Part shown: positions 25,137-31,596 of the stretch, in pieces
Layout: each line of letters begins with the position of its first letter
Position numbering within the stretch: position 1 is the stretch's first letter
Origin: Thermosynechococcus vestitus BP-1
GTDB lineage: Bacteria > Cyanobacteriota > Cyanobacteriia > Thermosynechococcales > Thermosynechococcaceae
Assembly (NCBI RefSeq): GCF_000011345.1
Contig: NC_004113.1
Span: 1 to 64,000, forward strand
Length of the DNA: 64,000 nucleotides
Direction: 5' to 3'
The notes under the pieces: model-generated
What the model saw: the letters and a program-made list of their open reading frames with translations, nothing else
Told to the model about the DNA's origin: nothing
Database searches by the model: none
Made by a program: the position numbers and the translations under genes

Positions 25137-26279
25137 ATGAAAGCGTCTGCGGATGCCAGTTCTCCCCAAGAAACGACACCGCCGCTCAGTTTGCTCCTGT
25201 TTGTTGCCAATCGTCCGGGCGATGAAGAGGAAACTGCTGCCATTCAAGCTCACATTCAGCAACTGCCCTCGAACTTTAGCTTTGAATTAAAAGTGGTGCC
25301 CATTGGTGAGCAGCCCTACCTTCTAGAGGAGTATAAGCTAGTTGCCACGCCCGCTTTGATTAAAGTCCGTCCTGAACCGCGCCAAACCCTCGCTGGTCGT
25401 AAGCTCCTGCAAAAGGTGGACTATTGGTGGCCGCGCTGGCAGCGGGAAGTGGCCCTTGGCCTACAGGCGGATATGCAAAAGTCGGCAGCGGAGCAGTCAG
25501 ATTGCTCTATGGAACTCAGCCGCCTCAAGGATGAGCTGTTTCAACTGCGCCAAGAGCGGGATCGCCTTGCCGAACAACTCCAATTCAAGGATCGAATTAT
25601 TAGCTTGCTGGCTCACGAATTACGCAACCCCCTCACTGCCGGCGGCATTGCCCTTGAAACCCTAGAGTCCAACCTTCAGGAAGAGAGCAGTCAACAACTC
25701 CCTATTGAGGACATCCAACGCCTGTTTCACCATGCCCGCAGTCAAACCCAGACAATGGGACAGCTGATTACTGATTTACTTTTGGCGGCTCGCGGCCCCC
25801 AAGACAAGCTGCAAATTATGGCACGGCAACTGGATTTGCGGCAACTATGCCAAGAGACCGTTGAGGATGTGCGCCTAAATTTTGAGCGTAAAAAGCAGCA
25901 CTTTACCACCGATATTCCTCTGGATTTGCCCTTGGTTTATGGGGATGGCGATCGCATTCGTCAGGTGCTTGTCAACCTACTGGATAATGCCTGTAAATAC
26001 ACTCCCGAAGGGGGCAAAATTCACCTGAGTGCTTTTCACCGCATGACTCAAAAAGTGCAAGTTACCGTCTCTGACACTGGTCCAGGTATTCCCATTGAGC
26101 AGCAGGAGAAAATTTTTGGCGAAACGGTTCGCCTCGATCGCGATCGCGCCATTGAAGGCTATGGCATTGGCCTTGCCCTTTGCCGCCAGATTATTCGTAT
26201 GCACTATGGCCAGATTTGGGTGGACTCCCAACCGGGGAAAGGCAGTTGCTTCCACTTCACACTCCCTGTTTATAGCTAG
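25137..26279 (+). CDS. sasA: Circadian clock histidine kinase SasA
   Basis: 380 residues from the ATG at 25137. The N-terminal ~105 residues form the KaiB-like thioredoxin fold that binds KaiC (LLLFVANRPGDEEETAA). A coiled coil (~125-150) leads to the H-box LLAHELRNPLTAG with phosphoacceptor H160. The ATPase domain has the N-box VNLLDNACKY, DTGPGIP and EGYGIGLALC. Family knowledge: SasA senses the KaiC phosphorylation state and phosphorylates RpaA to drive clock-controlled transcription. From memory it is tlr0029 in BP-1. kaiABC and rpaA are not in the window. It converges on the next gene with a 4-nt overlap. Confidence 0.95.
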   Translation: MKASADASSPQETTPPLSLLLFVANRPGDEEETAAIQAHIQQLPSNFSFELKVVPIGEQPYLLEEYKLVATPALIKVRPEPRQTLAGRKLLQKVDYWWPRWQREVALGLQADMQKSAAEQSDCSMELSRLKDELFQLRQERDRLAEQLQFKDRIISLLAHELRNPLTAGGIALETLESNLQEESSQQLPIEDIQRLFHHARSQTQTMGQLITDLLLAARGPQDKLQIMARQLDLRQLCQETVEDVRLNFERKKQHFTTDIPLDLPLVYGDGDRIRQVLVNLLDNACKYTPEGGKIHLSAFHRMTQKVQVTVSDTGPGIPIEQQEKIFGETVRLDRDRAIEGYGIGLALCRQIIRMHYGQIWVDSQPGKGSCFHFTLPVYS

Positions 26280-27235
26280 GGCTGCCCTTCCTCAATCATG
26301 CGGGCGATCGTTTCGGCACGCAGATAGGGATCAGGCCCAAAGGGCAAAATTTCGTAGAACTCATTATCTGGCAAGCGCATCAGTTGGAGGGATTCCTGCT
26401 CGCGATAGATCACATAGACTCCCGGTGGCCACGTTTTGGCACTGCGCACTGGCACTGGAATGTCGCGGCGCTCTCCGCCGACGCAGGCTAGGCGTACCAC
26501 CTGTGTATTGGGACGATAGACCACCTTATCTTCCCGCGTGCGCCGAAACAAAAAGCGATCCAAAACCTTGGGTAGGATCTCTGTTTCTGTGCCCCCCAAT
26601 TGCAAATTTAACTCCAGCAATTTGTCTTCGAGGGTGAGTTCAATGATACGGGGTTCAGGGACAAGGGGCTGAGAGTGAATTTCGGTGGTCTCTTGGGGCG
26701 GCGCGGCAGTAGGTTTTAGCTTCTGGACAATTTGACTGATGTACTCTAGATCGACGGTCGTAATTTTCTTAAAGGTGACAAACCAAGAGAGCAAACTAAT
26801 GGCCACCCCCGGTTCCAATGTCGTAATTAAGGTGGCGAGGTCTAAGTCATCAAGACGAATGGCCTTAAGGGCAGCATCGGTTTGGCCTAAAACAATGGCT
26901 GCATCCCCCGGACTTAAGTGTTGCAGGCTGGTGTAGAGCAGGCCCAGATCAATCGTTTCTTGGCAGCCTTGGGTTGAAATGCGGTAGGTGATGTCGTAGA
27001 GCCAATCTAGGGTTACCAAGTCATGGTTGAGCATCCAGAGGGCAACATTAAAGGCGGTTTGGGGAAAGGCAGCTTGGGCAAGACTTTTGACGATGACTTG
27101 GGCGCGATCGCGCTGGAGCAAGGAGATCAAGGCCGCCTGTTTTTCTGCCTTGGTTGTGAGTTCATGATAGCCAAGGAGATCTTGGAAGAGTTTTTGATCG
27201 CTGGGCAGTAATCGAATTGCCGCTGGAGGAGTCAT
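26276..27235 (-). CDS. Conserved cyanobacterial hypothetical protein
   Basis: 319 residues, no recognised domain. The N-terminal ~160 residues are helical and repeat-like (residues ~25-155 look like stacked helices). A proline/glutamate linker at ~176-195 leads to a C-terminal part with beta character (VVYRPNTQVVRLACVGGERR and WPPGVYVIYREQESL). Its stop overlaps the 3' end of sasA by 4 nt on the opposite strand. Function unknown. Confidence 0.6.
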   Translation of the reverse strand: MTPPAAIRLLPSDQKLFQDLLGYHELTTKAEKQAALISLLQRDRAQVIVKSLAQAAFPQTAFNVALWMLNHDLVTLDWLYDITYRISTQGCQETIDLGLLYTSLQHLSPGDAAIVLGQTDAALKAIRLDDLDLATLITTLEPGVAISLLSWFVTFKKITTVDLEYISQIVQKLKPTAAPPQETTEIHSQPLVPEPRIIELTLEDKLLELNLQLGGTETEILPKVLDRFLFRRTREDKVVYRPNTQVVRLACVGGERRDIPVPVRSAKTWPPGVYVIYREQESLQLMRLPDNEFYEILPFGPDPYLRAETIARMIEEGQP

Positions 27236-27959
27236 AGGCTTAGTGCCGCAGATTGATGTGACTCATTTCCCCTCACCCGACGATGAAGGCGATGAAGGCT
27301 AGACAAGGCAACGCTAGCTCTTAATTCCACTATAGAGGGTGGCGTGCGACGCGAAAGCTAGCCAGATGATTGTCCCACTAGCCCAACAAGCTAGAACGGG
27401 ACCGGTTGTTCCCCCAACCGTAGCCTAGGGAGGCATGCGCGACTGGTAACGGTCAGGTATGAAGCCCTCCCGACAACGGAGCCCGAACCGAAAGGTTGAA
27501 GCCGAATCCGTGAGGAGGAAGCAACTTTGCCAGCGTCAGGCGATAGGGAGCTAGGCTTGAGGGTATGGTGAACGCAAGTGAAGTGACGCCAGAAGCCTCG
27601 TTACTATAAACAGGCCAAAGACGCCGATAGGCCTGAGCCAAAATGGCAAACGGACTGGTTTCACTGCTGTCATCTCAGTGGACGGGGACAATAGTTCCGT
27701 CGGGGTAAAGTCACCACCTAACCCCTCGCGTCATCTGGTTGGAACGCGGTAAGCCCGTATCTTCGCCTTGAACATTCAAGGCAGGCAAACCGTAAGGAAT
27801 GCTGATGAGGGTGCGGGTATGGGATGCAGGAGAAAGCGAATGCTGGTCTGTAACGGACCGGATAGGGGTTGAGGAAACAATCCAACATCACCCCGCCCGA
27901 AAGGGAGCAGACTTCCTGCTGGTCTCCCTTTGCGAGATAACCTGTAGAACCTCTTGAAT

Positions 27960-27963
27960 GGAG
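27960..27963 (+). promoter_or_regulatory. Ribosome binding site separated from its start codon by the inner intron
   Basis: GGAG at 27960-27963 is followed by ACAAGGCA and then the inner intron. Joining 27971 to 28811 restores GGAG-ACAAGGCAA-ATG with a 9-nt spacer to the intron-protein start codon. In the unspliced RNA the two are about 850 nt apart. Confidence 0.7.
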
Positions 27964-27971
27964 ACAAGGCA

Positions 27972-28810
27972 GTGCGACGCGAAAGCTAGCCAGATGATTG
28001 TCCCACTAGCCCAACAAGCTAGAACGGGACCGGTTGTTCCCCCAACCGTAGCCTAAGGAGGCATGCGTGACTGGTAACGGTCAGGTATGAAGCCCTCCCG
28101 ACAATGAAGCCCGAACCGGAAGGTTGGAGCCGAATCCGTGAGGAGGAAGCAACTTCACCAGCGTCAGGTGATAGGGAGCTAGGCTTGAGGGTATGGTGAA
28201 CGCAAGTGAAGTGACGCTAGAAGCCTCGTTACTCCAAGCAGGCCAAAGATGCTGATAGGCCTGAGCCAAAATGGCAAAGCGGATTGGATTCACTGCTTGC
28301 TTTTCAGTGAACGGGGACAGCAACTCCGCCGGGGTATAGTCACCACCTAACCCCTCGTGTCATCTGGTTGGAACGCGGTAAGCCCGTATCTTCGCCTTGA
28401 ACATTCAAGGCAGGCAAACCGTAAGGAATGCTGATGGGGGTGCGGGTAGAGGAGGTGGGAAAAAGCGAATGCTAGCCTGTAATGGGCTAGATAGGGATTG
28501 AGAATGCTGGCAGGACATTCAACATCATCCCACTCGAAAGAGGGCAGACTTCCCGCCGGTCCCCCCTTACGAGAAAGTCTATAGAACCTTCCTAATGGTG
28601 ACAATGCAAATGGCGGTGATCTTGAGTCACTGGTGCGGTCACCAACCTGCTCAAAAGGTAGAGAGGCTGTAGATGAGTATCGTAAAGGTTGCATGCACAA
28701 CCGGTTCCTCTTAAATGAGGGGTCCTGGGGGGCTCGAGCCGGATGCGGGGAAACTTGCACGTCCGGTTCCTAGGGGGCTAGGGGGCAGCGATGCCCCCCT
28801 GCTACCCGAC
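27972..28810 (+). mobile_element. Inner ORF-less group II intron inserted in the outer intron
   Basis: An 839-nt intron, GTGCGACG to CTACCCGAC, almost identical to the outer intron over its first ~90 nt and throughout domains V/VI. It has lost its protein gene: the relic of the ORF start (ATGGCGGTG at 28610) runs into a stop after 20 codons, and sequence resembling the outer ORF 3' end (CCGGTTCCTCTTAAATGAGG) follows shortly after. It depends on a protein supplied in trans. The insertion point is defined exactly because the inner copy itself preserves the uninterrupted sequence GACAATGCAAATGGCGGTG, matching GACAAGGCA/AATGACGGTG. Confidence 0.92.
28736..28769 (+). ncRNA. Domain V of the inner group II intron
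   Basis: A 34-nt hairpin starting GAGCCGGATGCGGGGAAACT and ending CGTCCGGTTC. The AGC catalytic triad and GAAA tetraloop are intact, so the ribozyme core appears functional. Confidence 0.9.
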
Positions 28811-28811
28811 A

Positions 28812-30485
28812 ATGACGGTGGACCAAACCACTGGTGCAGTCACCAACCAAACGGAAATAAGCTGGCACAGCATAAACTGGGCCAAAGCCAACCGTGAGGT
28901 AAAGAGGCTGCAAGTGCGTATCGCAAAGGCTGTGAAGGAAGGACGCTGGGGCAAAGTGAAAGCTTTGCAATGGCTCCTGACCCACTCGTTCTACGGCAAA
29001 GCCCTTGCCGTGAAACGGGTAACTGACAACTCAGGCAGTAAAACACCTGGTGTGGATGGGATAACCTGGTCCACACAAGAGCAGAAAACCCAAGCCATAA
29101 AGTCCCTCAGGAGAAGAGGCTATAAGCCCCAACCCCTGAGGCGGGTATATATCCCGAAAGCAAACGGCAAACAGCGCCCGCTAGGAATCCCGACAATGAA
29201 GGACAGGGCAATGCAGGCACTATATGCACTAGCCCTAGAACCAGTCGCGGAAACCACAGCAGACCGGAACTCCTATGGGTTCCGCCGAGGGCGATGTACG
29301 GCAGATGCGGCAGGACAATGCTTCCTTGCTCTGGCAAGAGCCAAGTCGGCTGAACACGTCCTTGACGCTGACATATCCGGATGCTTTGATAACATCAGCC
29401 ATGAGTGGCTACTAGCCAACACTCCACTGGACAAAGGGATCTTACGGAAATGGCTTAAATCTGGGTTCGTCTGGAAACAGCAACTCTTCCCCACCCATGC
29501 TGGGACACCTCAGGGAGGGGTAATCTCCCCAGTTCTTGCCAATATAACCCTAGATGGGATGGAAGAACTGTTGGCCAAACACCTCAGAGGTCAAAAAGTC
29601 AACCTCATCCGATATGCTGACGATTTTGTCGTGACGGGAAAAGATGAGGAAACCCTGGAGAAAGCCAGAAACCTAATCCAGGAGTTCCTAAAAGAACGGG
29701 GCTTGACCCTGTCCCCCGAGAAGACAAAAATCGTCCATATTGAGGAAGGCTTCGACTTTCTCGGATGGAACATTCGCAAGTACAACGGGGTTCTTCTCAT
29801 CAAACCCGCGAAGAAGAACGTGAAAGCGTTCCTCAAGAAAATCCGAGACACTCTAAGGGAACTTAGGACAGCAACCCAGGAAATCGTGATAGACACACTC
29901 AACCCAATCATTAGAGGTTGGGCCAACTATCACAAAGGACAAGTCTCTAAGGAAACCTTCAACCGAGTGGACTTCGCCACCTGGCACAAATTGTGGCGAT
30001 GGGCAAGGCGCCGGCACCCAAACAAACCTGCCCAATGGGTGAAGGACAAATACTTCATCAAAAACGGAAGCAGAGACTGGGTGTTCGGTATGGTGATGAA
30101 AGACAAGAACGGGGAACTGAGGACCAAACGCCTAATCAAAACCTCTGACACCCGAATCCAACGCCACGTCAAAATCAAGGCAGACGCCAATCCGTTTCTC
30201 CCAGAGTGGGCAGAATACTTTGAGAAACGCAAGAAACTCAAAAAAGCCCCTGCTCAATATCGGCGCATCCGCCGAGAACTATGGAAGAAACAGGGTGGTA
30301 TCTGTCCAGTATGCGGGGGTGAAATTGAGCAAGACATGCTCACTGACATCCACCACATATTGCCCAAACACAAGGGTGGTTCTGACGACCTGGATAATCT
30401 TGTCTTAATCCACGCCAACTGCCACAAACAGGTGCACAGCCGAGATGGTCAGCACAGCCGGTCCCTCTTGAAAGAGGGGCTTTGA
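28812..30485 (+). CDS. ltrA: Group II intron reverse transcriptase/maturase with HNH endonuclease
   Basis: 557 residues from the ATG at 28812. Reverse transcriptase blocks run from about residue 60 to 340, with [26 protein letters not shown] and the catalytic YADD at 268-271. A maturase/thumb region follows ([13 protein letters not shown]-like). The C-terminal HNH nuclease (~495-545) has [18 protein letters not shown] and [10 protein letters not shown], complete for zinc binding and catalysis. No stops or frameshifts interrupt it, so splicing, reverse transcription and target cleavage may all be active. An in-frame ATG at 28791 lies inside the inner intron and would add seven residues; it is unlikely to be native. 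Confidence 0.93.
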
Positions 30486-30492
30486 GAGGCCT

Positions 30493-30526
30493 GAGCCGGA
30501 TGCTGGGAAACTAGCACGTCCGGTTC
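30493..30526 (+). ncRNA. Domain V of the outer group II intron
   Basis: A 34-nt hairpin starting GAGCCGGATGCTGGGAAACT and ending CGTCCGGTTC. It differs from the inner copy at two paired positions that preserve pairing (CTGG/CTAG against CGGG/CTTG). The AGC triad is intact. Confidence 0.9.
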
Positions 30527-30579
30527 TTAGGGGGCTAGGGGGCAGTAATGCCCCCCGCTACCCGACTAGAGTATCGAGG

Positions 30580-31596
30580 CTATTCCCCCACCTTAGCTTC
30601 TAATTTGCGCACTCGCTTGAGGAGATCTGGCAATTGCTTCACTGCGGCTGAGACCTTGAGGTAGAGGGTTTGATCCATCGCCGGGATCCCCCCCATGCGG
30701 CTATCTGGGGGTACCGAGCTACTAATGCCGGATTTGGCGGAGACAACAGTGCGATCGCCAATGGTCAAATGACCCGCTGCCCCCACCTGTCCAGCCAAGA
30801 CCACGTGATTACCAATGTGGGTTGAACCTGCCAACCCCACTTGGGCACAGAGAATGGCGTTTTCACCAATGGTGCAGTTGTGGGCCACCATCGTTAAGTT
30901 GTCAATTTTTGTGCCATTGGCCACAGTGGTCTCTCCAAGGGTGGCGCGATCAATCGTTGTGCCAGCACCAATTTCTACATCGTTGCCAATGACCACGGTG
31001 CCCACTTGGGGAATTTTGTAGTGACGACCATCGGGTAGGGGGACATAGCCAAAGCCATCACTCCCTAAAACCACGCTGTTTTGCAAGATGACGCGATCGC
31101 CCAATTGCACCCGCTCCCGCAGGGCACAGTGGCTGTAGATACGACAGTCTGAGCCAATCACCACATCGTCATAAAGGGTGCAATGGCTATCAATCACTGT
31201 GCGATCGCCAATGCGGACGCGATCGCCAATCACCGTATAAGCACCAATCGTTACCTCAGCTCCCAAAACCACATCGGCTCCCAGAATTGCTGTCGGGTGG
31301 ATTTTGGCGACAGGTTTGGGTTGTGGATAAAACCATTCAATACACTTGGCAAAGGCAAGGTAGGGATGGGGCACCCGCAGCAGAGGACAGGCCGCCTCCC
31401 CTTGAAAGTCGGGACGCACAAACACCGCAGCCGCTTGGGTGGTCTGCAACAGGGCGGTGTACTTAGGATTGGCCAGAAAAGAAATATCCGTTGCTGTTGC
31501 TGTTTCTAGGGGGGCTACTCCCAACACCGGGCGATCGCCGTGCTCTGGACAGTCGAGGGTTGCCCCAAACCGTTCGGCTACATCTGCCAACCGCAT
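30580..31596 (-). CDS. lpxD: UDP-3-O-acylglucosamine N-acyltransferase
   Basis: 338 residues. The N-terminal uridine-binding domain (MRLADVAERFGATLDC to ~100) is followed by a left-handed beta-helix of hexapeptide repeats (~105-290) containing DNLTMVAHNCTIG with the catalytic His. A C-terminal helix closes the protein. It transfers the N-linked acyl chain in lipid A synthesis in the cytosol. Its stop lies 13 nt from the end of the group II intron, which is inserted in the opposite orientation. It is divergent from nblA. Confidence 0.94.
   Translation of the reverse strand: MRLADVAERFGATLDCPEHGDRPVLGVAPLETATATDISFLANPKYTALLQTTQAAAVFVRPDFQGEAACPLLRVPHPYLAFAKCIEWFYPQPKPVAKIHPTAILGADVVLGAEVTIGAYTVIGDRVRIGDRTVIDSHCTLYDDVVIGSDCRIYSHCALRERVQLGDRVILQNSVVLGSDGFGYVPLPDGRHYKIPQVGTVVIGNDVEIGAGTTIDRATLGETTVANGTKIDNLTMVAHNCTIGENAILCAQVGLAGSTHIGNHVVLAGQVGAAGHLTIGDRTVVSAKSGISSSVPPDSRMGGIPAMDQTLYLKVSAAVKQLPDLLKRVRKLEAKVGE

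Follow-up and report, generated by a model that had tools for sequence, protein, structure and literature searches.

A known group II twintron of Thermosynechococcus elongatus in which the inner intron is predicted to separate a Shine-Dalgarno sequence from its start codon

Main

Group II introns that sit inside other group II introns have been described in detail for Thermosynechococcus elongatus, in which five ORF-containing introns of the F1 family (TeI4a-e) each harbour an ORF-less intron of the F3 family (TeI3a-e). In the available excerpts of PMC2882425, the F3 insertion is placed 'between two start codons' of the intron-encoded protein (IEP), and TeI4-type proteins are reported to mobilise both kinds of intron, F1 and F3, in E. 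coli. For another cyanobacterial twintron, that of Trichodesmium erythraeum, the excerpts of PMC4649490 report sequential splicing in vivo.

Here we analyse such a locus within a window of 64,000 nucleotides, the whole stretch of DNA under study. It is almost certainly one of the five F1/F3 twintrons already in the literature, a known rather than a new element, and the initial annotation was right to name Thermosynechococcus as the organism and Mohr, Ghanem and Lambowitz as the prior description, given that PMC2882425 explicitly covers both the class and the five copies in this genome. If the letters run in genome order, the element is probably TeI4a/TeI3a, the TeI4a label being based on order along the genome. 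The locus is thus a published example of group II intron proliferation; what we add is a different reading of where the inner intron lies, namely between a predicted Shine-Dalgarno sequence and the IEP start codon, and not 'between two ATGs'.

Anatomy of the twintron

Judged from its sequence, the locus is a twintron: a whole intron lies inside domain IV of an ORF-containing intron, as had been proposed, and its removal in silico restores the outer intron (Table 1). Both introns begin with GTGCGACG and finish with CCCGAC, that is, with a GUGYG-type 5′ end and an AY 3′ end. They are 95% identical over their first 300 nt, without gaps, and 87% identical over the next 226 nt of the 5′ part, and their 3′ ends (TACCCGAC) fall in a 105-nt repeat of 85% identity. 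The Rfam models for the domain I core (RF02012; 121.8 and 125.8 bits over the full model) and for domains V/VI (RF00029; 60.0 bits for the inner and 63.9 bits for the outer intron) match each intron once, all with E < 1e-8, and the domain V/VI ends of both introns fold far below shuffled sequences (z of −4.4 and −5.0). Excising the inner intron leaves a 2384-nt outer intron with an open frame of 562 aa (METRQMTVDQ...). Repeats, Rfam matches, folds and the restored ORF agree in placing all four intron ends exactly at the bases first assigned to them, and the covariance models called for at the outset fit both introns in their domain I and domain V/VI portions.

Table 1. Positions of the twintron, its parts and its neighbours in the window
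Feature	Position	Strand	Remarks
319-aa gene	26276-27235	-	neighbour of outer site; without Pfam family
Outer 5′ exon	27331-27343	+	IBS2 TATAG 27331-27335; IBS1 GGTGGC 27338-27343; IBS3 T 30567
Outer group II intron	27344-30566	+	subclass IIB1/CL, F1, TeI4 type; 2384 nt without insert
Outer domain I region	27402-27551	+	RF02012
Outer EBS2 CTATA	27604-27608	+	
Outer EBS1 GTCATC	27669-27674	+	EBS3 A at 27708
'First ATG' of IEP in the literature	27958-27960	+	overlaps Shine-Dalgarno
Inner 5′ exon	27959-27971	+	IBS2 TGGAG 27959-27963; IBS1 AAGGCA 27966-27971; IBS3 A 28811
GGAG, predicted Shine-Dalgarno of IEP	27960-27963	+	9 nt before 28812 start codon when spliced; within inner IBS2
Inner ORF-less group II intron	27972-28810	+	F3, TeI3 type; 839 nt
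Inner domain I region	28030-28179	+	RF02012
Inner EBS2 CTCCA	28232-28236	+	
Inner EBS1 TGCTTT	28298-28303	+	EBS3 T at 28337
Inner domains V/VI	28734-28810	+	RF00029
In-frame ATG, inner domain VI	28791-28793	+	AGGGGG upstream in DVI hairpin; candidate bypass start before splicing
IEP (RT, maturase, HNH endonuclease)	28812-30485	+	557 aa counted from second ATG
Outer domains V/VI	30491-30566	+	RF00029
lpxD	30580-31596	-	neighbour of outer site

Three lines of evidence fix the inner junction: the conserved ends of the introns, the cut at the identical base in four more F1 copies, and EBS/IBS pairing. It had also been argued that an intact version of the inner copy's insertion site survives within that copy; a loosely similar stretch is indeed present (28595-28608), but two of its 14 positions differ. 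We also considered, and rejected, the idea that the insert disrupts the domain IVa stem: local folding pairs GGAGAC with an upstream GTCTCC and leaves the stem intact before the insert. The IEP has RVT_1, RVT_N, GIIM and HNH domains above the cut-off together with a YADD motif, and can be aligned from end to end with maturase 6me0, a relative of solved structure.

In each intron, all 12 positions of EBS1, EBS2 and EBS3 pair with the exons, G-U pairs included. Over 21 distinct introns, 196 of the 252 EBS/IBS positions pair, against a mean of 126 and a maximum of 177 in 20,000 exon permutations, a test that is somewhat favourable because the EBS positions were picked by inspecting these same introns. 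Full exon pairing supports, at the level of predicted base pairs, both retrohoming and splicing competence of the two introns.

Elsewhere in the window, the minus strand at 2971-3257 matches Rfam RF02514 (5′ ureB sRNA; 82.7 bits, E 7e-20), a match that may merely reflect conserved ureB coding.

Position of the inner insertion

To place the insertion relative to translation signals, we compared the leaders of 29 distinct homologues from other bacteria, whose IEPs are 53-63% identical. Their start codon mostly falls at the position of the second ATG of T. elongatus, and a Shine-Dalgarno core is found at −5 to −16 in 24 of them, compared with 10% of random positions; the commonest spacing to the start is 9 nt, and AAAGCAA or AGGCAA often stands in between. 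Only two leaders place a start codon where the first ATG lies, and there both appear poorly aligned. The T. elongatus stretch ATGGAGACAAGGCAAATG has the same arrangement, with the first ATG overlapping GGAG and GGAG lying 9 nt before the second ATG, a distance that recurs in F2 introns. Because most homologue leaders carry a Shine-Dalgarno sequence before the second ATG and lack the first ATG, we conclude that the inner intron separates the predicted ribosome-binding site from the start codon.

Duplex energies with an assumed anti-Shine-Dalgarno are −6.4 kcal/mol for the second ATG in spliced RNA and +0.2 kcal/mol before the first ATG. Local folding predicts GGAG to be partly or wholly paired, even after splicing, so its accessibility is uncertain. 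Table 2 of PMC2882425 gives little difference between the two ATGs; those constructs, as described in the excerpts, carried an engineered phage T7 Shine-Dalgarno, and the comparison is therefore no test of the native site. From these predicted signals, removal of the inner intron should be needed for normal maturase translation, which would give a positive feedback loop.

It is possible, though we consider it unlikely, that unspliced RNA serves as the message for the IEP, with translation starting at the 28812 ATG or at the in-frame one at 28791 and the inner intron having no effect on expression. The reading frame is open from 28791, an AGGGGG 5 nt before that ATG pairs with the assumed anti-Shine-Dalgarno at −9.3 kcal/mol, and a passage of PMC2882425 suggests that initiation at the second ATG might not require splicing. 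However, the 20 nt before 28812 offer no Shine-Dalgarno pairing in unspliced RNA (+0.4 kcal/mol, same assumed anti-Shine-Dalgarno), and both the AGGGGG and the 28791 ATG sit in a stable DVI hairpin, in which the mean unpaired value of AGGGGG is about 0.15 at 37 and at 55 °C.

The separation of Shine-Dalgarno and start codon by the inner intron leads to a wider and more tentative reading, to which we give somewhat less than an even chance: that F3 targets the ribosome-binding site of its own family's maturase genes, at a motif conserved across phyla, so that synthesis of the protein that drives it would be tied to its own splicing. The motif in question, AAAGCA/AAGGCA ahead of the ATG, persists in related introns from other phyla. 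Several relatives from the proteobacteria and Bacteroidota have AAAGCA, which is perfectly complementary to the F3 EBS1, just before their IEP start codon (homologue loci L097, L099, L100, L103, L104, L156 and L175), and the F3 target motif would thus be conserved far beyond the cyanobacteria. A scan of the region upstream of the start in 80 homologue loci with a simple domain V pattern, which misses many domain Vs, returned no second case of a twintron at this site.

Intron copies across the genome

Querying the whole genome with the inner intron returned seven identical F3 copies. Five of these lie at the identical base in F1 introns, one in the ORF-less intron TeI3h (444131) and one at an intergenic site (2082690). 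The other F1 copies are at 293406, 519483, 1148139 and 1196954; the frame of the copy at 1148139 is broken, and TeI4d is described in PMC2882425 as having a broken frame. In total, our census gives 25 intact introns and three fragments, in agreement with the numbers in the excerpts of that article. No intron-related DNA was found in ten other Thermosynechococcus species, and the burst of 28 introns therefore looks species-specific among those genomes.

The F1 copy in the window differs from those at 293406, 519483 and 1196954 by 8 to 11 positions, all within positions 656-1156 of the spliced intron (28838-29338). Some of its residues match the broken copy at 1148139 instead.

The twintron is intergenic, lying between lpxD and the 319-aa gene and antisense to the two of them. 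Eight other Thermosynechococcus species have an empty outer site, which reads GGTGGC joined to TAGAGTATC or close variants, with neither duplication nor deletion; the insertion was therefore clean. The outer target as a whole, CACTATAGAGGGTGGC followed by TAGAGTATC (27320-27343 and 30567-30590), shows conservation in eight species of the genus, and its minus strand includes TATAGT upstream of the 319-aa gene, so the insertion may split parts of a promoter.

In the history that we propose, an F1 intron with its ORF inserted between lpxD and the neighbouring gene, and an ORF-less F3 intron retrohomed into the beginning of the protein gene that this F1 intron carries. That the twintron instead moves and splices as a composite, the inner intron being removed along with the outer one and its own splicing being irrelevant, strikes us as improbable. 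Outside the insert, at most 11 differences separate four of the five F1 twintrons, and their inner copies are identical, a pattern that composite copying could yield. Against this, F3 is also found in TeI3h and at an intergenic location, unrelated but with a matching IBS, and therefore moves alone; moreover, in our own comparison as in the excerpts of PMC2882425, the outer copies differ among themselves whereas the inner copies are identical. That the locus is a dead remnant with two splicing-defective introns is very improbable: although it is intergenic and antisense to its neighbours, and a promoter scan found no site clearly above chance, domains V and VI are intact, EBS/IBS pairing is complete, the IEP frame is open with YADD, and the IEPs of TeI4a, b, c and e are active in E. 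coli according to PMC2882425.

Discussion

In the mechanism that we propose, with the inner intron lying between the predicted Shine-Dalgarno and the start codon, the inner intron would be spliced first, rejoining GGAG to the start codon; the IEP would then be made efficiently and would promote splicing of both introns. If true, one mobile intron would, by being spliced, bring together in the native RNA the ribosome-binding site of a protein on which both introns depend, a regulatory claim that is testable. It would also explain the quality of the insertion site as a refuge that is conserved and not easily lost by the host intron. A search of the open-licence literature, followed into PMC2882425 and PMC3073962, yielded no statement of a twintron that splits a Shine-Dalgarno sequence from its start.

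The locus shares with the TeI4a-e/TeI3a-e twintrons of PMC2882425, as excerpted, by all appearances the organism, the F1 and F3 families and an insertion five codons into the IEP frame; the sequence is the same, and only the interpretation of the insertion site differs. The Trichodesmium erythraeum twintron (Pfreundt and Hess 2015, PMC4649490) is likewise a cyanobacterial intron within an intron. In the portions of that article available, it interrupts a protein-coding host gene, whereas no coding exon flanks the T. elongatus twintrons. Homing into related introns also links the locus to the nested group II introns of Methanosarcina acetivorans, as cited in PMC2882425. With Ll.LtrB and its protein LtrA it would share a control point at an IEP Shine-Dalgarno inside the intron (PMC3073962, in part); in Ll.LtrB the LtrA protein covers that site, whereas in T. 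elongatus splicing would assemble it.
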